A DNA stretch of 59,884 nucleotides from Bacteroidales bacterium (lineage in GTDB: Bacteria > Bacteroidota > Bacteroidia > Bacteroidales > JAAYUG01), in NCBI GenBank assembly GCA_012517825.1, contig JAAYUG010000089.1, positions 1 to 59,884 on the forward strand, read 5' to 3'. The notes beneath the pieces were generated by a model. The model was not told the DNA's origin. It ran no database searches and worked only from the letters and a program-made list of their open reading frames with translations. Of the stretch, positions 18,348 through 30,915 are shown in pieces. How positions within the stretch are numbered: position 1 is the first letter of the stretch; the number at the start of each line of letters is the position of its first letter. The translations under genes were made by a program, and so were the position numbers.

Positions 18348-19031
18348 CTATCCGAGCTCTGCAATAACCGAAAGGCGTTTTTCGTCAGTAATAGAAATTT
18401 CTTTTCCGTTTATTCGTATAATCCCATCTTTTCTGAATTCGGAGAGAATACGGATTACATTTTCCGGGGTCATTTCGATAAATTCGGCGATTTCCTTGCG
18501 TGAAACCGGAAGTTCAAATGTGTTGTTTTTATATACCGAGCGGGCAAAGTAAAGGAGGACGAAAGCTATACGACCGCGAAGGTTTTTCCGGCTGATTTCA
18601 AGGGTGGTATTAATGATTTCATCCGTCATCCGGCTCATTTTTCTGAGAAGGTCAAAGGCAAAATTCCCGTTTTTTTTCACCATTTCCTTCACCGTTTCAA
18701 AATTTACATAACAAACAGTAGTATCTTCCAGAGCCGCTACAGAATACTGAAAATATCTGTCGCTGAAGATGCTGAGAAGATTGATGAAATCGAGTGGTCC
18801 GGCTATTTTGATGATCTGATTTTTCCCGTTGTCAAGATGTTTATACAGTTTTACAAGACCGGTTTTCAGGTAACTGAATTCCTTAATTTCTGCCCCTTGT
18901 TCAATAATCGTTTCCCCTTTCTTGTAGTTACGCTCTTTACGGGTATCACACAGAAGAGCAAATTCCTTTTCAGAAACATTCTGGAAAAACAGGGCTTTTA
19001 ATTCGCAATTTTCACAGTTACACCCGGTCAT
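18348..19031 (-). CDS. FNR-like Crp/Fnr transcriptional regulator with possible Fe-S ligands
   Basis: A 227-residue regulator with an effector domain (about 20-130), a long dimerisation helix and a C-terminal winged HTH (about 160-225). Cysteines cluster at the N-terminus (Cys4, Cys6, Cys9), and Cys107 lies in A-L-E-D-T-T-V-C, which aligns with E. coli FNR A-L-E-T-S-M-V-C, where the Cys is FNR Cys122, the fourth [4Fe-4S] ligand. The N-terminal spacing differs from FNR, so a cluster is plausible, not proven. In the recognition helix, P-E-N-V-I-R keeps the Glu and Arg (FNR E209, R213) that read TGAT half-sites. It is divergent from the sulfur operon, with two ATGATnnnnATCAT palindromes between. 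Confidence 0.88.
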   Translation of the reverse strand: MTGCNCENCELKALFFQNVSEKEFALLCDTRKERNYKKGETIIEQGAEIKEFSYLKTGLVKLYKHLDNGKNQIIKIAGPLDFINLLSIFSDRYFQYSVAALEDTTVCYVNFETVKEMVKKNGNFAFDLLRKMSRMTDEIINTTLEISRKNLRGRIAFVLLYFARSVYKNNTFELPVSRKEIAEFIEMTPENVIRILSEFRKDGIIRINGKEISITDEKRLSVIAELG

Positions 19032-19049: not shown

Positions 19050-19063
19050 ATGATAAATATCAT
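19050..19063. promoter_or_regulatory. FNR-type palindromic operator, site 1
   Basis: ATGATAAATATCAT is a perfect palindrome of 6-base arms around AA and matches the FNR core TGAT-N4-ATCA. It lies 19-32 bases upstream of the regulator's own start codon, a position suited to autorepression (inferred). Confidence 0.72.
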
Positions 19064-19066
19064 ATT

Positions 19067-19080
19067 ATGATAGTTATCAT
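19067..19080. promoter_or_regulatory. FNR-type palindromic operator, site 2
   Basis: ATGATAGTTATCAT has the same arms as site 1, with centres 17 bases apart. It ends 34 bases before the -7 element of the sulfur operon (19115-19122), a position where a Crp/Fnr activator could work upstream of RNA polymerase (inferred). Confidence 0.72.
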
Positions 19081-19114: not shown

Positions 19115-19122
19115 TACTTTTG
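19115..19122 (+). promoter_or_regulatory. Bacteroidota -7 promoter element for the sulfur operon
   Basis: TACTTTTG, exact TAnnTTTG, 48 bases before the SQR start codon. The -33 region is poor (a TTG 16 bases upstream, not 19-21), consistent with a promoter that needs an activator. Confidence 0.55.
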
Positions 19123-19170
19123 TTACAAAAATAACAGAAACTGTAATCAAAATAATTAATCACTAAAAGT

Positions 19171-20403
19171 ATGAAAAAATTGCTGATTCTTGGTGCCGGT
19201 ACAGGAGGGACCATCATGGCCAATAAGATGAGGAAAGCTCTTCCGAGGGAGGAATGGGAAATAACCGTTGTTGATCAGGAAAAAACGCATTACTACCAAC
19301 CCGGTTTTCTTTTTATTCCTTTTGGAATTTACAAAAAAGAGGATGTAATCAAGCCGAAGAATGATTTTATTCCGTATGGGGTGAACCTTATATTTTCGGA
19401 AATTGATCGCATTGCACCTGACGAAAACAAAGTATTCCTGAAAGAAGGAACTGTGCTGGGGTATGATTACCTGATCATAGCAACGGGTTCACGGACTGTT
19501 CCTGAAGAAACGCCCGGCCTAAAGGGGGAACTCTGGCACAAGCGGATTTTTGATTTTTACAATATTGAAGGCGCGCTGGCTTTGCAGGATTTTTTCAAAC
19601 GCTGTGAGGGAGGCAATCTGGTTGTCAACATTGCAGAACTTCCTTTTAAGTGTCCGGTTGCTCCTCTTGAATTTGTCATGTACGCCGATTCATTTTTCAC
19701 AAAGAGAGGAATGCGCAGCAAGGTTAATATTTATTATGTGACACCAATGTCGGGCGCATTTACCAAACCCAGGGCTTCCAAAGTACTGGGGGGCATGCTC
19801 GAAGAAAAAAACATCCACATTGTGCCTGACTTTTACATCAGTGAGGTTGATAATGAAAGGAAGACAATAAAAGACTATGGAGGGCAGGAAGTGCCTTTTG
19901 ACTGCCTGGTTACCATTCCGGTGCATATGGGATCAGAAGCCATCATACGTAGTGGAATGGGCGACGATCTTGGGTTTGTGCCTACTGATCCCTATACACT
20001 TCGTTCAAAACAGTTTGAGAATGTTTTTGTTATAGGTGATGCTTCGGATATTCCTACTTCAAAAGCCGGATCTGTTGTACATTTTTCGTCTGATGTAGTT
20101 TTTGAAAATCTGATGTGCGCCATTGAGAACCGTGCGTTTACAGCTAAATTCGACGGGCATTCCAATTGCTATATTGAAACCGGTGATGGCAAGGGTGCCT
20201 TGATTGATTTCAATTATGAAACGGAACCGCTGCCGGGTTACTATCCGTTTCCCGGTGTTGGTCCTTTTTCCCTTCTTAAGGAAACACGGATGAATCATTA
20301 CGGGAAACTCATTTTCCGTTGGATTTACTGGCACCTTCTTCTGAAGGGCAAAGAGATGCCAATCAGCAATGAGATGTCGATGGCCGGAAAAATTATCGGA
20401 TAA
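19171..20403 (+). CDS. sqr: Sulfide:quinone oxidoreductase-like flavoprotein
   Basis: A 410-residue FAD protein of the SQR/FCSD group. The dinucleotide fold opens with G-A-G-T-G-G (8-13), the second FAD motif is Y-L-I-I-A-T-G (100-106), and the third is V-F-V-I-G-D-A-S-D (285-293). Cys161 in K-C-P-V-A-P-L-E matches the conserved active-site Cys. The region where many SQRs carry another redox Cys (S-K-A-G-S-V, 297-302) has none; other cysteines are at 145, 245, 315 and 333. A C-terminal aromatic/basic stretch (about 378-392, W-I-Y-W-H-L-L-L) could anchor it to the membrane. Expected reaction: sulfide to polysulfide with electrons to quinone. First gene of the operon. Confidence 0.87.
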   Translation: MKKLLILGAGTGGTIMANKMRKALPREEWEITVVDQEKTHYYQPGFLFIPFGIYKKEDVIKPKNDFIPYGVNLIFSEIDRIAPDENKVFLKEGTVLGYDYLIIATGSRTVPEETPGLKGELWHKRIFDFYNIEGALALQDFFKRCEGGNLVVNIAELPFKCPVAPLEFVMYADSFFTKRGMRSKVNIYYVTPMSGAFTKPRASKVLGGMLEEKNIHIVPDFYISEVDNERKTIKDYGGQEVPFDCLVTIPVHMGSEAIIRSGMGDDLGFVPTDPYTLRSKQFENVFVIGDASDIPTSKAGSVVHFSSDVVFENLMCAIENRAFTAKFDGHSNCYIETGDGKGALIDFNYETEPLPGYYPFPGVGPFSLLKETRMNHYGKLIFRWIYWHLLLKGKEMPISNEMSMAGKIIG

Positions 20404-20407
20404 TACA

Positions 20408-21106
20408 ATGAAAATGGAAACCATGAATACACTTCCGGTTGAACAACAACTTGCCGAGATGAACAGCAAGTTGGATTTTCTGATGGAAGAAATGCTGCAT
20501 CAGCGGCGCAGAAGGCAGGAAACAGAGGACCTGATGCAGGACATTTCCTTGATCGGAAAGGATTTATCGGCAACAGCGGTTGAAAAACTCGATAAAGCCG
20601 GGATCGCAATTGATTATGATCAGTTGACAGGTTTTGGCATCAGGCTGTTACGTAATATTGAGACATTCAGCCGACTGCTGGATCTTGTTGAAAGTGCCGA
20701 TGACCTGCTTCGGGATGTTGGTCCTATTCTTCATCAGGCAGGGCTTGATGCCATTAATAAACTGCATGAGCTTGAAGCCAAAGGCTATTTTGAATTTATG
20801 AGGGAACTTATGGCATTGATCGATAAGATTGTAACCAATTTTTCGGCCAAAGACCTTCATGATCTTTCAGAAAATATTCTTCCCCTTCTTGAAACCATGA
20901 AGAATCTTCCTCAACCCGGAGTCACCGGAGCTCTGAATCAAGCCCTGAAGGCTTACGGAAACACTGTCGGGCAAAAGGAGATTCCCCGGTATTCGCTCTG
21001 GAAGTTAATAAGGGAGCTGAATTCACCCGAGATGAAAAAGGCAATTGGCTTTACCATCACGTTTATGAAACAGATGGCAGCAGAAACAGATAAACAATCA
21101 ATGTAA
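20408..21106 (+). CDS. DUF1641-like protein
   Basis: About 232 residues, entirely alpha-helical by pattern, no signal peptide. An N-terminal coiled-coil (about 10-45) precedes repeated amphipathic helices, with a C-terminal segment (P-R-Y-S-L-W-K-L onward) typical of DUF1641 proteins. DUF1641 genes commonly accompany SQR-like, DsrE/TusA or formate-dehydrogenase genes, and the protein is presumed an accessory or interaction partner; no activity is known. The ATG at 20408 is four bases after the sqr stop; a longer reading from 20369 overlaps sqr and lacks support. Confidence 0.78.
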   Translation: MKMETMNTLPVEQQLAEMNSKLDFLMEEMLHQRRRRQETEDLMQDISLIGKDLSATAVEKLDKAGIAIDYDQLTGFGIRLLRNIETFSRLLDLVESADDLLRDVGPILHQAGLDAINKLHELEAKGYFEFMRELMALIDKIVTNFSAKDLHDLSENILPLLETMKNLPQPGVTGALNQALKAYGNTVGQKEIPRYSLWKLIRELNSPEMKKAIGFTITFMKQMAAETDKQSM

Positions 21107-21127: not shown

Positions 21128-21442
21128 ATGGCAACAAAAACCTATGCTGGTAAAACAGTAGAAGTAACTGAAGAAGGATACTTTAAAAATCCTTCTGACT
21201 GGACCCGTGAAATGGCGGCTGAAATTGCCCGTGAAGAGGGTATCGAGCAGCTTACCGATAAACATTATGCCGTACTTGAGTATATCAGGTCGAAAGTTAT
21301 GGCCGGCGAACAACTGACCATCCGGGCGATGAACAAATCGGGGGTGGTTGACATCAAGCAGTTTTATGAATTGTTTCCCGGTGCACCTCTTAAAAAGGCA
21401 ACGAAGATTGCCGGAGTGCCCAAACCAACAAGTTGTGTTTAA
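21128..21442 (+). CDS. DsrC/TusE-family sulfur carrier with a single C-terminal cysteine
   Basis: A 104-residue DsrC-like protein. The body (E-V-T-E-E-G-Y-F, then a P-x-D-W segment) and the C-terminal arm K-I-A-G-V-P-K-P-T-S-C-V are diagnostic. The penultimate Cys103 corresponds to CysA, the persulfide-carrying residue. CysB, eleven residues before it in true DsrC, is Thr92 here, so it cannot form the CysA-CysB trisulfide used with DsrAB. It is also shorter than DsrC because of a trimmed central loop. It thus resembles TusE or DsrC-like transfer proteins, and its position suggests it accepts sulfur from the SQR/DsrE2 step. 21 bases separate it from the DUF1641 gene. Confidence 0.88.
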   Translation: MATKTYAGKTVEVTEEGYFKNPSDWTREMAAEIAREEGIEQLTDKHYAVLEYIRSKVMAGEQLTIRAMNKSGVVDIKQFYELFPGAPLKKATKIAGVPKPTSCV

Positions 21443-21460
21443 CCTATAAATCAATATAAT

Positions 21461-21961
21461 ATGGCTGAAAAATCAGATAAACTTAAGAAAGTCTGCATAA
21501 TATGTGCCAAAGGGACAATTGAGGACGTATATGCAGCACTGGTACTGGCCAATGGCGCAGTGATGGAAGGAATTGAGGCAAAAATGTTCTTTACCTTCTT
21601 CGGGCTTGATGCTATTACCAAGAACCGCATGGATAAACTGCATACAGCAGTAGTCGGAAATCCTGCACTTCGCATGCCGGGAGGCCTTCCTTTTCCAACC
21701 CTGCTTGGAATCATTCCCGGTGTTGAAGCCGGCGTTTCGGCCATGATGAAAAGCCAGATGGAAAAGCTGGATATTCCCCCCGTCAGTGAATTTTTTGACA
21801 TGATTACCGCAGGTGGAGGGGAAGTTTATGCATGCAAGCTGGCTATGGATATGTTCAAGTTGACAAAGGAAGACCTTTCCGACCATGTAAAGGGGGTTCT
21901 GACGGTAGGTGAATTTTATGAGTTAGCCGGTGGAGAGGGTTCCCAGATAATTTTTGTTTAA
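21461..21961 (+). CDS. DsrE2-like (DsrE/DsrF-fold) sulfurtransferase-family protein
   Basis: A 166-residue protein with the DsrE/DsrF fold; the extended form with G-I-P-G-V-E and a G-G-G-E-V-Y-A-C segment fits DsrE2 (DrsE_2). Cys125 in Y-A-C-K-L is the conserved candidate sulfur-accepting Cys; Cys12 and Cys15 form an N-terminal C-I-I-C pair that might be redox active. DsrE2 proteins usually mobilise persulfide sulfur with TusA or rhodanese partners, often at the membrane; here the DsrC-like protein is the neighbour. Last gene of the operon, followed by a clear terminator. Confidence 0.85.
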   Translation: MAEKSDKLKKVCIICAKGTIEDVYAALVLANGAVMEGIEAKMFFTFFGLDAITKNRMDKLHTAVVGNPALRMPGGLPFPTLLGIIPGVEAGVSAMMKSQMEKLDIPPVSEFFDMITAGGGEVYACKLAMDMFKLTKEDLSDHVKGVLTVGEFYELAGGEGSQIIFV

Positions 21962-24857: not shown

Positions 24858-25730
24858 TTAGTATTCCCAGAGGTCGTGTTCGAAGTTGAATATAAAGTTC
24901 TTTATTCTTTCTGATTCATAAAGAGCATCAACTCCACGTGCATACGAGCTTATCAGACGGTTGTTGTAGACATTGGTTTCCCGGTAGATATAGCTGTCGA
25001 AGCGGCGTTGCATGAAAAGGTCATCAAAAGATACATTCTGTGCGTCATTATGCCGGTTAAATACTTCGTGGCTGGCAAGGAGATTGCGGGCGTCGGGATA
25101 ATAGACCCAGAACAGGGGAATGGTCCTGTAATCGCCTGTCGGATTGCCCTGCTCGTCGAGTCGGGGTGTAATGGATACCGGACAGATGCCAATAATGCGA
25201 ACCTGAAGGGTGCTGTAGTTCTTGTCAAAGAACCATTTTTCCTTGATGTTGATCTGCTTGACATTCTGGATGAGGTCATTCCTGGTGATTTTGGAAACTT
25301 TCTTCACCATCTGACCGGGGTTATCAGGGTCTTCCACAAGGATGGTATCCATGCGTACACCAAGGCGCTTGTCAACCTCTTCCTTGGTGGTTTCCATTTT
25401 GAACTCATTGTTTTCATCATAGGGGTCATATACCTTCAAGCCTTCATAATCCATACCCCACAGCAGAAGGTTGACAAGGTTCATTCTGTTCCCTATTGTC
25501 TGTAAGGGATAATAGAGATTCAGATTCATTTTCTGGCGGAGGTCAATGGTTCTCCAGACGATTTTTGACCACATAACATCCGCTTCCCTGGTGTAAGGAT
25601 AGGGAATAGGCTTTTTGTTAGGTATGTGAATCTTATCGTACACTTCCTTTTTGAGATCCTGGGCTTTCGCTGCATTCTGAGCTGCGACCACAAACGTCAA
25701 ACCAAGGAATATGGCAACAATGCTTCTCAT
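24858..25730 (-). CDS. gldN: Type IX secretion/gliding protein GldN (PorN)
   Basis: A 290-residue periplasmic protein with an N-terminal signal peptide (cleavage near A-K-A-Q). GldN/PorN binds GldK/PorK to form the large ring under the outer membrane in the type IX secretion system. Recognisable family features include the early P-I-P-Y-P-x-x-R-E-A-D-V-M-W-S-K segment and R-x-I-D-L-R-x-K-M-N. It lies three bases after gldM and is last in a porP-gldK-gldL-gldM-gldN array, followed by a terminator. Confidence 0.93.
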   Translation of the reverse strand: MRSIVAIFLGLTFVVAAQNAAKAQDLKKEVYDKIHIPNKKPIPYPYTREADVMWSKIVWRTIDLRQKMNLNLYYPLQTIGNRMNLVNLLLWGMDYEGLKVYDPYDENNEFKMETTKEEVDKRLGVRMDTILVEDPDNPGQMVKKVSKITRNDLIQNVKQINIKEKWFFDKNYSTLQVRIIGICPVSITPRLDEQGNPTGDYRTIPLFWVYYPDARNLLASHEVFNRHNDAQNVSFDDLFMQRRFDSYIYRETNVYNNRLISSYARGVDALYESERIKNFIFNFEHDLWEY

Positions 25731-25733
25731 AGG

Positions 25734-27362
25734 TTAAATTATTTTTAAAGTGATTGATCCTAAATCGCGGGTACTGCCATCGGGCAGTGATGCTTTAATG
25801 TCTTCAAAATATACCTTGGAGCCTTTTCCGAGGCGTTCGAGTATATTAAGCTGTTCCTGGGTAAATTTATTGGAGTTGGAAGTAGCTTCCATGTCGAACT
25901 GGCCAACCTTTGCCGAAACTTTAAAGCTAACGACTTTTACTATTGCTTCGAATTCAAAATTTTCCATTTCAGCTATAACTCCTGATTGGGCGAGCAAAGT
26001 AGAACGGGCAATATTTCCTCCCCGCAATCCACCAACTTTAGGAACGGGTGAAGGCAACATTTTTACGCGGAATTCCTTGTAGCCGAAATCTCTTTTCTGA
26101 TTCCCGCCCATATCGGCTGTAACCCGTATCTGGGCAGAACCGGCCCTTTCAGGATTTACGATATACTGGTTACCGGAGATTTTTCGTATGCGTCCGTTAT
26201 TGATGGTAGCAGTTACCTTATCGGCAGCCACGCCGGAAACCGATATTTCAACCGGGTTATCAAGACCCATGTAAAATACGTTCATTTTGGTAGGCGAAAC
26301 GGTCATGGAAGGTTCCTCAACGATATATTCCGATTCAAACGGGCGTTTGATATCAGGACCACCGGAAGGAGACTTCAGTACAATCAGTCCGCCCCATTTT
26401 TTATTTCCTACTGTGGTTCCGGGCACTTTGTAAACTCCAACACCCTTATCAACAGGAAGTTGCTGGCTGGGACCCGTCATTTCATAGTCAATTGTACCAT
26501 CCTCGCGCACAACTTTTTTGTAGCTACCCACCAGGATGGTTGGATCCTGCGTACTGTCGGATGCTGCAATAAATACTTTGGCTTCGTAATTATTTCCGCG
26601 AACAATGTAGTTTGAATTCGGGATGACGATAGCTTCCAGCTTGTTGAACTTAAAGGCTCCGGCATCAATTTCATTGTAAAGGTAGCGGAGAATTTCGGTT
26701 TCAGCATTTCGGACATTGTTCTGCAAAGCCGACAGGATTGTAACAACTGCAATCAGCGGGATATGTTCAAAGTGTTCCGATTCCCATGATTCGGTTTTTC
26801 CTTCCTTGGGCGGGGGATCTTTTGTATCGAGAGCTTTTTCTATAGCTGCTCTTACATTGGGTGCATCATCCTTGACCATTCCCAGCAGAATATTGCGGAA
26901 GTTATCAATTTGTGCCTTGAGGGGTTTCGCTTCACCGTTATTATTGGTGCCCACCATGATCTGGGCCGGCTTGTCAGTATTATCTTTCGCTTGGATTTTA
27001 TCGGTGTAAATTTCCCCGTCCTTGCCAATAGCGGGAGCATCTTTTCCGTCACCGAGCTGAATGATTTTAATTTTCAGGTCCTGCATTTTGTTATACAGGT
27101 CGTTGGCCAGTTGTTTTACCTGGTTGGCTTTTTCAAGCCAGGGACCAGCCTTGACCGGGTTTTCTGCTGCCGCTCTTTCAAACTGGTCATAAATTACGGC
27201 ATTCTTCTCGTAGAAGTTGACATTGGTTTTCGACAATCCTTCATCTACCAGGGCAAAAGCATTAAGAACGTCTTTGGAGACGTTAAGGGCGAGTAAGGCA
27301 GTAAGGACCAGGTACATCATCCCGATCATCTTCTGTCTTGGTGTTTCTTTGCCGTGTGCCAT
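25734..27362 (-). CDS. gldM: Type IX secretion motor subunit GldM (PorM)
   Basis: A 542-residue protein: a short cytoplasmic start, one membrane helix (about 13-32, M-M-Y-L-V-L-T-A-L-L-A-L) and a long periplasmic part of consecutive beta-rich domains reaching to the GldK/N ring. Arg9, which in Flavobacterium GldM pairs with the GldL glutamate, is present. With GldL it forms the proton-driven motor powering gliding and T9SS. It starts 38 bases after gldL. Length and order match the family. Confidence 0.94.
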   Translation of the reverse strand: MAHGKETPRQKMIGMMYLVLTALLALNVSKDVLNAFALVDEGLSKTNVNFYEKNAVIYDQFERAAAENPVKAGPWLEKANQVKQLANDLYNKMQDLKIKIIQLGDGKDAPAIGKDGEIYTDKIQAKDNTDKPAQIMVGTNNNGEAKPLKAQIDNFRNILLGMVKDDAPNVRAAIEKALDTKDPPPKEGKTESWESEHFEHIPLIAVVTILSALQNNVRNAETEILRYLYNEIDAGAFKFNKLEAIVIPNSNYIVRGNNYEAKVFIAASDSTQDPTILVGSYKKVVREDGTIDYEMTGPSQQLPVDKGVGVYKVPGTTVGNKKWGGLIVLKSPSGGPDIKRPFESEYIVEEPSMTVSPTKMNVFYMGLDNPVEISVSGVAADKVTATINNGRIRKISGNQYIVNPERAGSAQIRVTADMGGNQKRDFGYKEFRVKMLPSPVPKVGGLRGGNIARSTLLAQSGVIAEMENFEFEAIVKVVSFKVSAKVGQFDMEATSNSNKFTQEQLNILERLGKGSKVYFEDIKASLPDGSTRDLGSITLKII

Positions 27363-27400
27363 TTTACTTGAGAACTATTAGATTTAGGGCAGATGTTGGT

Positions 27401-28375
27401 TTATTTTTTACTAACAACATTCATGGCAGAAAGCATATTGCCATAAATATTGTTCAGGGTAGCGATGTTTTCGCTCAATCTTGCCATTTCCTCCCTGTAC
27501 TTCTTTGTTTCCTCCACGGATTCCTTGAGGTTTTTCATCATGGAACCCAGTTCTCCGAACACTTGTTGATTTTCCTTAATGTGCTGGTCTGTTTCCTTCA
27601 GCTGGAGTTCATAGACAGCATTCAGGGCAGCAAGGTTTTTATTGAGGGTTTCGAGCTGGCTTGAATATCCTTTACCCCCGTTATTAATACTTTCCTGATA
27701 AGCGGCAATGGACTGTGTGAGTTTTTCATAAGTACCTGCCAGGTTTTCTCCGGAACGTGCGATGTGATTTGAAATTTCCTGGCCTGATCTGGCAACAGCT
27801 TCAGCTGTCTGCTGATATGACTGGCTGAGGAGGTTGACCGATTCCTGCAGTGTTTGAGTATTTGTAGTATAATTGACCGCCATATTGCTCAAGGCCTGGG
27901 CAGCAGATTTAAAGTTGCTGACATATTCATTGGTTGCTACGGAAGCATCTGTAATTTCAGAGATCTTGGCTGCAGTAGCATTAATTTTATGCAGGCCTTC
28001 GCTAAGTTTGTTAAAATCCTCGGCTGAGATACTGCTCTGGCTGACGATCTGGTCAAATCGTTCGAGCACGGAACCTGCCCTGCCGGCAGTAAGGGCTTCC
28101 CGATAGTTTTCCATTTCATCAGGATCGGTCATTCCGGCCAGTTCAGGGTATACGAGCGTCCAGTCGAGTTCTTCGTGAAGTGGTTCGAAAGCAGAGAAGA
28201 AGAAGATGATTGCTTCCGTACTCAATCCAAGGGTTATCATAACACCTGCTCCAGGCCAGTGCTGAATTTTGAACATGGCGCCGATAATTACCACCGAAGC
28301 TCCGATACCATAGAGCTTGGCCATAAAGTTTTTCCAGCCGGTTGACTGGACGAGGTCGGTTAAGCTGAAGGCCAT
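27401..28375 (-). CDS. gldL: Type IX secretion motor subunit GldL (PorL)
   Basis: A 324-residue protein with two N-terminal membrane helices (about 22-35 and 44-62) and a long cytoplasmic coiled-coil tail, longer than some GldL. Lys36 and Glu54 occupy the positions of the Flavobacterium GldL residues (K27, E49) implicated in the proton pathway, and the F-E-P-x-H motif after helix 2 is conserved. It makes the pentameric stator-like ring around the GldM helices. Immediately downstream of gldK. Confidence 0.94.
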   Translation of the reverse strand: MAFSLTDLVQSTGWKNFMAKLYGIGASVVIIGAMFKIQHWPGAGVMITLGLSTEAIIFFFSAFEPLHEELDWTLVYPELAGMTDPDEMENYREALTAGRAGSVLERFDQIVSQSSISAEDFNKLSEGLHKINATAAKISEITDASVATNEYVSNFKSAAQALSNMAVNYTTNTQTLQESVNLLSQSYQQTAEAVARSGQEISNHIARSGENLAGTYEKLTQSIAAYQESINNGGKGYSSQLETLNKNLAALNAVYELQLKETDQHIKENQQVFGELGSMMKNLKESVEETKKYREEMARLSENIATLNNIYGNMLSAMNVVSKK

Positions 28376-28405
28376 AGTATTAAGTTTACAGGTTTTTCAA
28401 CAGGT

Positions 28406-29737
28406 TTATTTATTGCTGCCAAGATACGTTCTCACACAACGGAAACCGATGTATGATTTGGCGGTATCCTGGTATTCATATGAACGTGTGCCGCACTGGA
28501 GATAGTATGCAATGTCTTTCCAGGATCCTCCGCGAATCACTTTACGTTTCATGGAAGGAGGATCATCGGGTTTGGCATTGTATTTATAATCCGGGTTCAG
28601 GTCGTGGGTAAAGATATAGGCAGATTCATCGTACGCATTGGCAGTCCATTCAGCTACGTTACCAGCCATATCGTAGAGGCCCCATTCGTTGGGTTCAAAG
28701 GAACCGACTTTCATTGTGGTAACACCGCCGTCGTCGGAATAATTTCCACGGAGGGGTTTGAAGTTGGCGAGGAAGCATCCCTTATAGTTGCGGGTATACA
28801 TACCTCCCCAGGGATACATGGAAAGGTCAAGTCCTCCGCGGGCGGCATATTCCCATTCTGATTCGGTGGGCAGGCGGTAATCATGGACAAAATAACGGCC
28901 ATCTTTCTGAAGGGCATCATTCAGGTATTTTGTTCTCCAGATGCAGAAAGCGGTGGCCTGCTTCCAGGTTACTCCAACAACGGGGTAGTTATCGTAGGCC
29001 GGATGCCAGAAGTACATAGTAGTCATAGGTTCATTGTACGAATAGGTAAAATCGGCAACCCAGCAGAGGGTATCAGGGTACACATTGATAACATCCCTGA
29101 AGACGAAGGCAGAACGGTTTGTGATATCCACTTTCTGTCCTTCAGGATTGGTAACCTGGCCCTGGTATTGTTTTGTCTGGAAATTGTAGCGGTTATTCTT
29201 ATTGGCCGCCTGCTGAAGGTCAATCCAGTAATATTCGTACATCAGTTTGCGGGTATCAAGCTCTTTGCGGCCGAAGAAACGTTCGTTCGGCTGAAGGTAA
29301 AGCTCCTGAAGAATGTTATTGACTTCTTCGTCTTTGTAATCGATTTTGGTTTCCCAGTTCAGGTATGGAGGATCAATCGGGTTTCCGAAGGCATCTTCGG
29401 AAATGGCGAAATCCTCAATCTGGGCGGCCAGCATGCGGCGGATGATGGAATCGCGGACCCAGTAAACGAATTGGCGGTATTCGTTATTGGTAATTTCGGT
29501 TTCATCCATCCAGAAAGCTTCAACGGTAACCGTTTTGGAAGTAACGTTTTCGGCCCAGGGTACATCCTGGTCACTGGGGCCCATATTGAAGCTTCCCTGA
29601 GGAATAAATACCATTCCGTAAGGATCGGGTTCAAAGTATTTTTCCCTGCCGGGAACTCCTGTAAGTTCACCATTGTCAGATCCTCCGCAACTGGTGATAA
29701 GCACTAAGATAACTGTCAGGCCAATGATCTTTTTCAT
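28406..29737 (-). CDS. gldK: Type IX secretion lipoprotein GldK (PorK), FGE-sulfatase domain
   Basis: A 443-residue lipoprotein: signal with lipobox L-I-T-S-C (Cys17), then a formylglycine-generating-enzyme-like (FGE-sulfatase) domain from about residue 40 to the C-terminus. Domain marks are F-I-P-Q-G-S-F-N-M-G, the D-E-T-E-I-T-N substrate loop, L-P-T-E-S-E-W-E-Y-A-A-R-G and G-N-V-A-E-W-T, ending R-G-G-S-W and F-R-C-V-R. In this family the fold is structural, forming the periplasmic ring with GldN. The position after porP and before gldL is standard. Confidence 0.94.
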   Translation of the reverse strand: MKKIIGLTVILVLITSCGGSDNGELTGVPGREKYFEPDPYGMVFIPQGSFNMGPSDQDVPWAENVTSKTVTVEAFWMDETEITNNEYRQFVYWVRDSIIRRMLAAQIEDFAISEDAFGNPIDPPYLNWETKIDYKDEEVNNILQELYLQPNERFFGRKELDTRKLMYEYYWIDLQQAANKNNRYNFQTKQYQGQVTNPEGQKVDITNRSAFVFRDVINVYPDTLCWVADFTYSYNEPMTTMYFWHPAYDNYPVVGVTWKQATAFCIWRTKYLNDALQKDGRYFVHDYRLPTESEWEYAARGGLDLSMYPWGGMYTRNYKGCFLANFKPLRGNYSDDGGVTTMKVGSFEPNEWGLYDMAGNVAEWTANAYDESAYIFTHDLNPDYKYNAKPDDPPSMKRKVIRGGSWKDIAYYLQCGTRSYEYQDTAKSYIGFRCVRTYLGSNK

Positions 29738-29820
29738 AACACGTCAGGTATTATTCTTTGGTTGTTATTTTCTTTATTACAATATAGTTTCTGCAAAATT
29801 GATATAAAAGTAAAAAAAAA

Positions 29821-30753
29821 TTATAAAAATCGAACGCTTTTAAATTTCTGAGGAGATTTTTCCACTTTCATGCGGAAACAATAGGCTACACTGAATTCAT
29901 GGGAACCGCTGTTGTATTTCCGCAGATCGGTCATGGAGAAATCATAGGAATACGTAACCCGTATACCGTTAAAAATCTCCAGTCCCAGCATGCCGATGAG
30001 GGCATCGCCCATACGGTATGCAACTCCACCCCAGAATTTCTGATTATACACAATATTTGTGTTTAATGTTACCTGTGAGTTTTTTGCATCTGAAGCTACC
30101 AGGGCTGAGGGTTGAATCTCAAAGGCAGGATTCGGCAATTGCATTTTGTACCCTGCCATGAGATAATAGTGCATGCGGGATTGGGTAGTGGCCTGGTCAA
30201 AATTCATTTTTGAACTCACAAGGTGTTTTACGGAAAAACCGGCAAAAAGGTTATCAGTTTCGTAAAAAGTACCCAGGCCCATATCAAAACCAAAGGCACT
30301 CTCTCCATCCTTGGGGATAGCATTATCTCCTTCGGTTTGCACAGGAGGTTTCCATTGTGCCCCGTTAAGAGCTTTGTTCAGCAAACCCGCATTGATTCCG
30401 ATACCGAGTTTTCCTTCGCCGAGAGTTATATGGTAGGCATAGGCCAGGGCGATAGCAAGGTCTTTATCGAAGCCGATGTTATCGCTCATAAGGTTAACGC
30501 CAATGCCGCCGGGAATTCCGAATGGCCGGAAAGGAGTATTGGCATGGAAAACGGTTGTCTGTGGCGCTCCGTCAATACCAACCCATTGTTGCCTTGTATC
30601 AAGCCCAAGGCAGATCATATTGCTGATACCGGCAAATCCCGGGTTAAATGTCATTTTATTGAACATATATTGGCTGAAAATAGGATCCTGCTGTGCATGC
30701 AGTATTCCATTCACAGCCAGCAGAAAAATCAGTGTACCGGAGAGCCTTTTCAT
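29821..30753 (-). CDS. porP: PorP/SprF-family type IX secretion outer-membrane protein
   Basis: About 310 residues from ATG 30753, which gives a proper signal peptide (M-K-R-L-S, core, L-H-A-Q). A reading from 30828 adds 25 residues ahead of it and is rejected. The mature protein starts Q-D-P-I-F-S-Q-Y and has the N-P-G-F-A-G motif of PorP/SprF barrels, then beta strands to the C-terminus. PorP/SprF proteins attach to the PorK/N ring or help export adhesins such as SprB. Placement before gldK mirrors porPKLMN of Porphyromonas. The 84-base gap to gldK has a weak CAATTTTG element only. Confidence 0.92.
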   Translation of the reverse strand: MKRLSGTLIFLLAVNGILHAQQDPIFSQYMFNKMTFNPGFAGISNMICLGLDTRQQWVGIDGAPQTTVFHANTPFRPFGIPGGIGVNLMSDNIGFDKDLAIALAYAYHITLGEGKLGIGINAGLLNKALNGAQWKPPVQTEGDNAIPKDGESAFGFDMGLGTFYETDNLFAGFSVKHLVSSKMNFDQATTQSRMHYYLMAGYKMQLPNPAFEIQPSALVASDAKNSQVTLNTNIVYNQKFWGGVAYRMGDALIGMLGLEIFNGIRVTYSYDFSMTDLRKYNSGSHEFSVAYCFRMKVEKSPQKFKSVRFL

Positions 30754-30915
30754 AATATAATCCGGGGGTAAACTGTTCCGGTTTAATTTGAAAACAGTAA
30801 AATAAGTAAAATTATTGTATACCTCCAAATATTATTAACAATTAGATGTTGATAACCTGAGGCCTGAAAAGGGAAAAGGTGTTTATAAAGAAATGAATAT
30901 CAATAAAAAACGCAA

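Follow-up and report, generated by a model that had tools for sequence, protein, structure and literature searches.

A Crp/Fnr-family regulator encoded next to a sulfide:quinone reductase (sqr) operon of a Bacteroidales bacterium very probably binds two palindromes in the gap between the two genes and activates the operon from these tandem sites, as judged from sequence comparison. The conservation of the palindromes, their dependence on the regulator, the match between recognition helix and site, and the fixed distance to the -7 box together make cognate binding with activation of the sqr operon the best reading. The initial annotation had suggested that this regulator controls sulfide oxidation. 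Comparison bears out the link between regulator, sites and sqr promoter, and on that basis we infer the remaining parts of the explanation, namely physical binding, activation rather than repression, and control by the state of the cysteines. Regulator dimers would occupy the tandem palindromes, with site 2 at about -53 and site 1 at about -70, and the bound regulator would activate the operon sqr-DUF1641-DsrC-DsrE2 at its TAnnTTTG promoter. The regulator may in turn be controlled through the state of Cys6, Cys9 and Cys107, all of them conserved.

The palindromes, the regulator and the sqr operon

The features discussed are listed in Table 1, with coordinates in the window, the whole stretch of 59,884 bases that was analysed.

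Table 1. Features of the regulator-sqr region (positions in the window; "." means that no strand is assigned).
Feature	Position	Strand	Remarks
Crp/Fnr-family regulator, 227 aa	18348..19031	minus	Cys4, Cys6, Cys9, Cys107; recognition helix TPENVIR
Palindrome 1 (site 1), ATGATAAATATCAT	19050..19063	.	upstream (distal) tandem member, centre about -70.5
Palindrome 2 (site 2), ATGATAGTTATCAT	19067..19080	.	sqr-proximal; conserved, predicted activator position, centre about -53.5
-7 promoter element of sqr operon, TACTTTTG (TAnnTTTG)	19115..19122	plus	
Rex-like operator (likely), TTGTTACAAAAATAACA (TTGTTA-N6-TAACA)	19120..19136	.	overlaps -7 box and inferred transcription start near 19127
sqr, type III sulfide:quinone reductase, Cys form of selenoprotein subtype	19171..20403	plus	NF049943
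DUF1641 protein	20369..21106 (ORF as listed)	plus	PF07849 6.9e-07
DsrC/TusE sulfur-relay protein, single C-terminal Cys	21128..21442	plus	PF04358 2.4e-26
DsrE2-like sulfur carrier	21461..21961	plus	PF13686 1e-26

Both palindromes lie inside the sole gap between the regulator (minus strand, start codon ending at 19031) and sqr (start at 19171). Their positions, their identical arms ATGATA/TATCAT and the 17 bp between their centres are as the initial annotation had described them, and the promoter element TACTTTTG was likewise found where it had been placed. In the window, ATGATN4ATCAT occurs just at these two sites, with 0.15 expected and two or more reached in 2 of 100 shuffles; across the whole assembly (3.3 Mb, 95% complete) it occurs 15 times. 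The short core TGATN4ATCA by itself is weak evidence, since the window holds five matches against 1.9 expected. Regulon counts in the own genome were obtained by pattern searches. The extended form TGATAnnTATCA has three copies in the 3.3-Mb assembly, two being the pair in the window and the third lying within an acyltransferase-like ORF; elsewhere in relatives, the inspected matches were mostly within coding sequence. At this strict consensus, the notion of a local switch fits this genome.

The regulator is a member of the Crp/Fnr superfamily, with a cNMP-binding fold and a Crp-type winged helix (PF00027 7e-19, PF13545 3e-17; PF00325 also over its cut-off). Its AlphaFold2 model (pLDDT 89, residues 1-5 of low confidence) was closest to 2gau, a Crp/Fnr protein of Porphyromonas (Z 26.3, rmsd 1.7, 213 residues), and gave Z 25.1 and rmsd 2.8 against A. 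fischeri FNR (5e44). The Glu and Arg that read the core in FNR had been said to be kept in this protein, and alignment places E190 and R194 at FNR Glu209 and Arg213.

The sqr product is a type III sulfide:quinone reductase by its model score (640.7 bits against NF049943, cut-off 525) and by the two redox cysteines, C161 and C333, which are invariant. The frame is without in-frame TGA, so the protein is a Cys form within a family whose model is based on selenoproteins. The DUF1641 protein likely starts at an internal Met immediately past the sqr stop. The DsrC/TusE protein scored 75.7 bits against TIGR03342 (cut-off 53.5), and the DsrE2-like carrier 96.9 bits against NF047629, under the cut-off of 210. 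Further downstream, past the sulfur operon and an MlaE/ABC pair, translations of 24858-30828 resemble GldN, GldM, GldL and GldK (gliding/type IX secretion), together with a PorP-like gene.

Conservation across sqr loci and distance to the promoter

Relatives of sqr were collected in 60 genomes of the order, then in 393, and in addition from 80 loci of a public genome collection. After upstream stretches of further genomes had been added and duplicates removed, 137 distinct sqr loci were obtained, 106 of which have the regulator divergent to sqr. The conservation check on orthologous loci that the initial annotation had proposed could thus be run, and the palindromes are conserved there: TGAYN4RTCA was present in the gap of 92 of the 106 loci with a divergent regulator (exact core in 81, TGATAnnTATCA in 75), and this relaxed site was absent from the other 14. 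A site was found in only 7 of the 28 loci that lack an adjacent regulator and have complete upstream sequence (Fisher p 6e-10 versus 92/106); in total nine loci have a site but no regulator beside it, and some of these lie at contig ends. When palindromes with 4-base arms were ranked without bias, TGAT-N4-ATCA came first, in 49 of 68 gaps with 0.2 expected. Regulator, sites and promoter geometry are retained together over many genera.

The -7 element occupies -12 to -5 (PMC9723704). Of the site-box pairs, 56 have the palindrome 46-47 bp before TAnnTTTG, 35 have it 62-65 bp before, which is the conserved distal tandem position, and three 68 bp before; seven values are stray. Where sites form a tandem, their spacing is 16 or 17 bp, roughly one and a half helical turns, in 45 of 47 cases. 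Centres accordingly fall near -52.5 (proximal) and -69 (distal) across loci, and at -53.5 and -70.5 in the window. Only the palindromes and the -7 box are conserved. Palindrome columns mostly carry 1 to 2.6 bits, and no column between palindrome and -7 box exceeds 0.34 bits; the difference stems in part from selection, although the unselected outer and inner bases are conserved too.

A fixed distance upstream of the sqr -7 box is as expected for an activator of sqr, and the earlier proposal that site 2 is positioned for activation agrees with the proximal site being fixed 46-47 bp before that box. The same proposal assigned autorepression to site 1. That the regulator represses sqr, or that site 1 is an autorepression site, we consider unlikely. 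Some 20 bp do separate site 1 from the start codon of the regulator, and a TATTTTTG box on the minus strand (19133-19126), if a promoter, would have both sites downstream of it. However, it is the sqr promoter to which the sites keep a fixed distance, and they lie upstream of its -7 box, whereas a search of the regulator side found no preferred distance on the minus strand across loci. Site 1 is the upstream half of a tandem of fixed spacing, and loci with a single site mostly retain the sqr-proximal one (at 46-47 bp in 26 of 34) and not site 1.

When the whole order was searched for TGATN4ATCA followed at 33-36 bp by a -7 box, 206 of 393 genomes gave hits, many at non-sqr genes, and the reversed control gave far fewer. 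This palindrome/-7 geometry is probably common to other Crp/Fnr regulators as well, so the search does not isolate the regulon of the sqr regulator.

Recognition helix and paralogous regulators

In 103 regulator sequences, the equivalents of FNR Glu209 and Arg213 were invariant. Most regulators have Ile at the FNR-212 position, and there the outer base was A in 207 of 250 half-sites; some have Val, and there it was T in 20 of 22 half-sites and A in none. All 89 scorable loci fit this helix-base rule (81 Ile/A, 8 Val/T). The regulator tree needs just two Ile/Val-A/T changes, so that the covariation amounts to one or two independent events, and an independent-pairs test of it had little power. 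The window regulator is of the Ile type with outer base A, and its sites share the core of the FNR box TTGATN4ATCAA but not the outer T. A Val-type subclade has TTGTTATATAACAA-like palindromes in its gaps instead of TTGATN4ATCAA (loci L031, L046 and L089), which are possibly a drifted operator.

Among genomes with a site and without an adjacent regulator, three encode a good homologue elsewhere: G250 (helix TENVIR, site ATGAT), G174 (helix MENTVR, site TTGAT) and G248 (helix TENAVR, TTGATATAAATCAA among its sites). The regulators of G250 and G174, although distant from sqr, follow the Ile/A and Val/T rule. A fourth genome, G391, has just a weaker regulator match with a different helix.

The genome of the window encodes seven other Crp/Fnr homologues. 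A paralogous regulator at C29 is divergent from DsrE, DsrE2, TusA, FlpD-like, two HdrA-like and QmoC-like genes (L261:1886-9057). The gap between them contains TGTGATATACATCACA, which is of the CRP type (TGTGAN6TCACA), as well as a Rex-like site. The helix of the C29 regulator has Arg at the CRP-180 position, for which the Arg180-G rule (PMC1274295) predicts a CRP-type site, as is found. Thus each of the two sulfur clusters found in the genome lies opposite a Crp/Fnr gene of its own, and the site in the gap matches. Another paralogue, at C16 (L001:748-1514), lacks an N-terminal CxxC and has Ile at the FNR-212 position. Upstream of this gene lies ATGATTTTAATCAT; a TAACTTTG box belonging to a divergent response-regulator gene follows 50 bp on.

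With so many homologues, the palindromes might be bound mainly by a different Crp/Fnr paralogue, such as a global FNR-like factor, and the divergent gene might be a mere neighbour. Some of the seven could bind similar cores: the paralogue at C16 has ATGATTTTAATCAT upstream of itself, and three paralogues carry an N-terminal CxxC together with a cysteine at the Cys122 position. Nevertheless, we regard this as quite unlikely, because the sites track the divergent gene (92/106 versus 7/28) and its helix residue, and because a different helix goes with a different site at C29. Moreover, sqr genomes without the site keep other paralogues, but their matches to the divergent regulator are weaker even than that of G391 (169-205 bits versus a median of 318). 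Binding by the divergent regulator itself thus remains the preferred reading. That the palindromes reflect common ancestry or chance, without regulatory function, is highly improbable: the AT-rich gaps and the relatedness of many loci would favour it, but dinucleotide-shuffled upstream sequences gave about one site-bearing locus in 137 (range 0-3), the palindrome is near invariant next to unconserved positions between it and the -7 box, and it recurs in many families of the order.

Possible signals and relation to known regulators

Among the 106 divergent regulators, Cys6 is present in 103, Cys9 in 105 and Cys107 in 102; at Cys107 the others have gaps. These residues align with Cys20, Cys23 and Cys122 of FNR. 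The equivalent of Cys29 is absent. Its position is hydrophobic: the window protein has Phe there, and 100 of 106 regulators have Leu, Phe, Ala, Ile, Val or Tyr. The window protein has an extra cysteine, Cys4 (CxCxxC), which is found in a minority of regulators and might replace the missing fourth cluster ligand. The CxxC and the Cys122 position are common to three paralogues of the same genome, so this signature is not unique to the sqr-adjacent regulator. Cys6, Cys9 and Cys107 may hold an FNR-like iron-sulfur cluster, responding to oxygen or redox, or may act as a sulfur-species thiol sensor. We put the chance that the regulator senses through an iron-sulfur cluster at about even; that it senses sulfide or persulfide directly through the three cysteines seems doubtful, and the signal may also be another one. 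If it does sense sulfide or persulfide in this way, it would be a direct sulfide/persulfide-sensing Crp/Fnr activator, a sensor class for which we found no description in the literature, and one that acts at a Bacteroidota promoter from tandem sites in opposite phase, 16-17 bp from each other.

A second input may come from the repeat at 19120-19136, which is likely a Rex operator. Of the 137 loci, 31 have TGTTAN6TAACA in the 150 bp ahead of sqr, versus 0-1 in dinucleotide shuffles; counted from where the -7 box begins, it lies mostly at -3, +6 or +11. In the own genome, which has two Rex genes, copies of the motif are also found ahead of V-type ATPase, F-type ATP synthase beta and NuoE-like genes. 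Such an operator over the sqr promoter would add NADH control.

Like FNR, the [4Fe-4S] oxygen sensor known from E. coli and A. fischeri, the regulator has the same whole-chain fold, Glu209/Arg213, the TGAT-N4-ATCA core and aligned counterparts of three of the four cluster cysteines. Unlike FNR, it has no Cys29 equivalent, carries Ile/Val for Ser212 and faces an outer A in most sites; FNR also serves a large regulon, whereas here there is a dedicated neighbour operon with sites near -52.5 and -69. The designation FNR-type is therefore apt for fold and core motif but not for the outer base (A instead of T) or the full cysteine set. We rejected the regulator as FNR proper, given the cysteine and Ser212 differences and a score of 86.4 bits against NCBIfam Fnr, its best NCBIfam model, yet below the cut-off of 228.

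The sulfide/persulfide sensors SqrR/BigR (ArsR family) and CstR (CsoR family) are likewise local regulators beside sulfide-oxidation genes, but they belong to unrelated families and are repressors, whereas the protein described here is a Crp/Fnr protein at a predicted activator position. HcpR is a Crp/Fnr regulator adjoining hcp in anaerobes, including Bacteroides (PMC1274295). It resembles the present case as a local Crp/Fnr regulator with one redox operon, whose helix residue and site co-vary; it differs in having no FNR cysteines, in being a haem/NO regulator of hcp and in its motifs.

A literature search found no Crp/Fnr regulator of sqr in Bacteroidota, and such absence is not proof. By sequence comparison, the system is apparently a conserved and undescribed Crp/Fnr switch for sulfide oxidation in Bacteroidota. 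For the Bacteroidota of sulfidic sediments and vents, whose regulator of sulfide oxidation is not described in the literature searched, it offers a concrete candidate whose operator sequence and promoter position are given, along with a rule for its specificity and the cysteines that may act as sensor. It would also provide a conserved activator geometry, at about -52.5 with an optional second site 16-17 bp upstream, in a phylum with an unusual sigma factor and unusual promoters.
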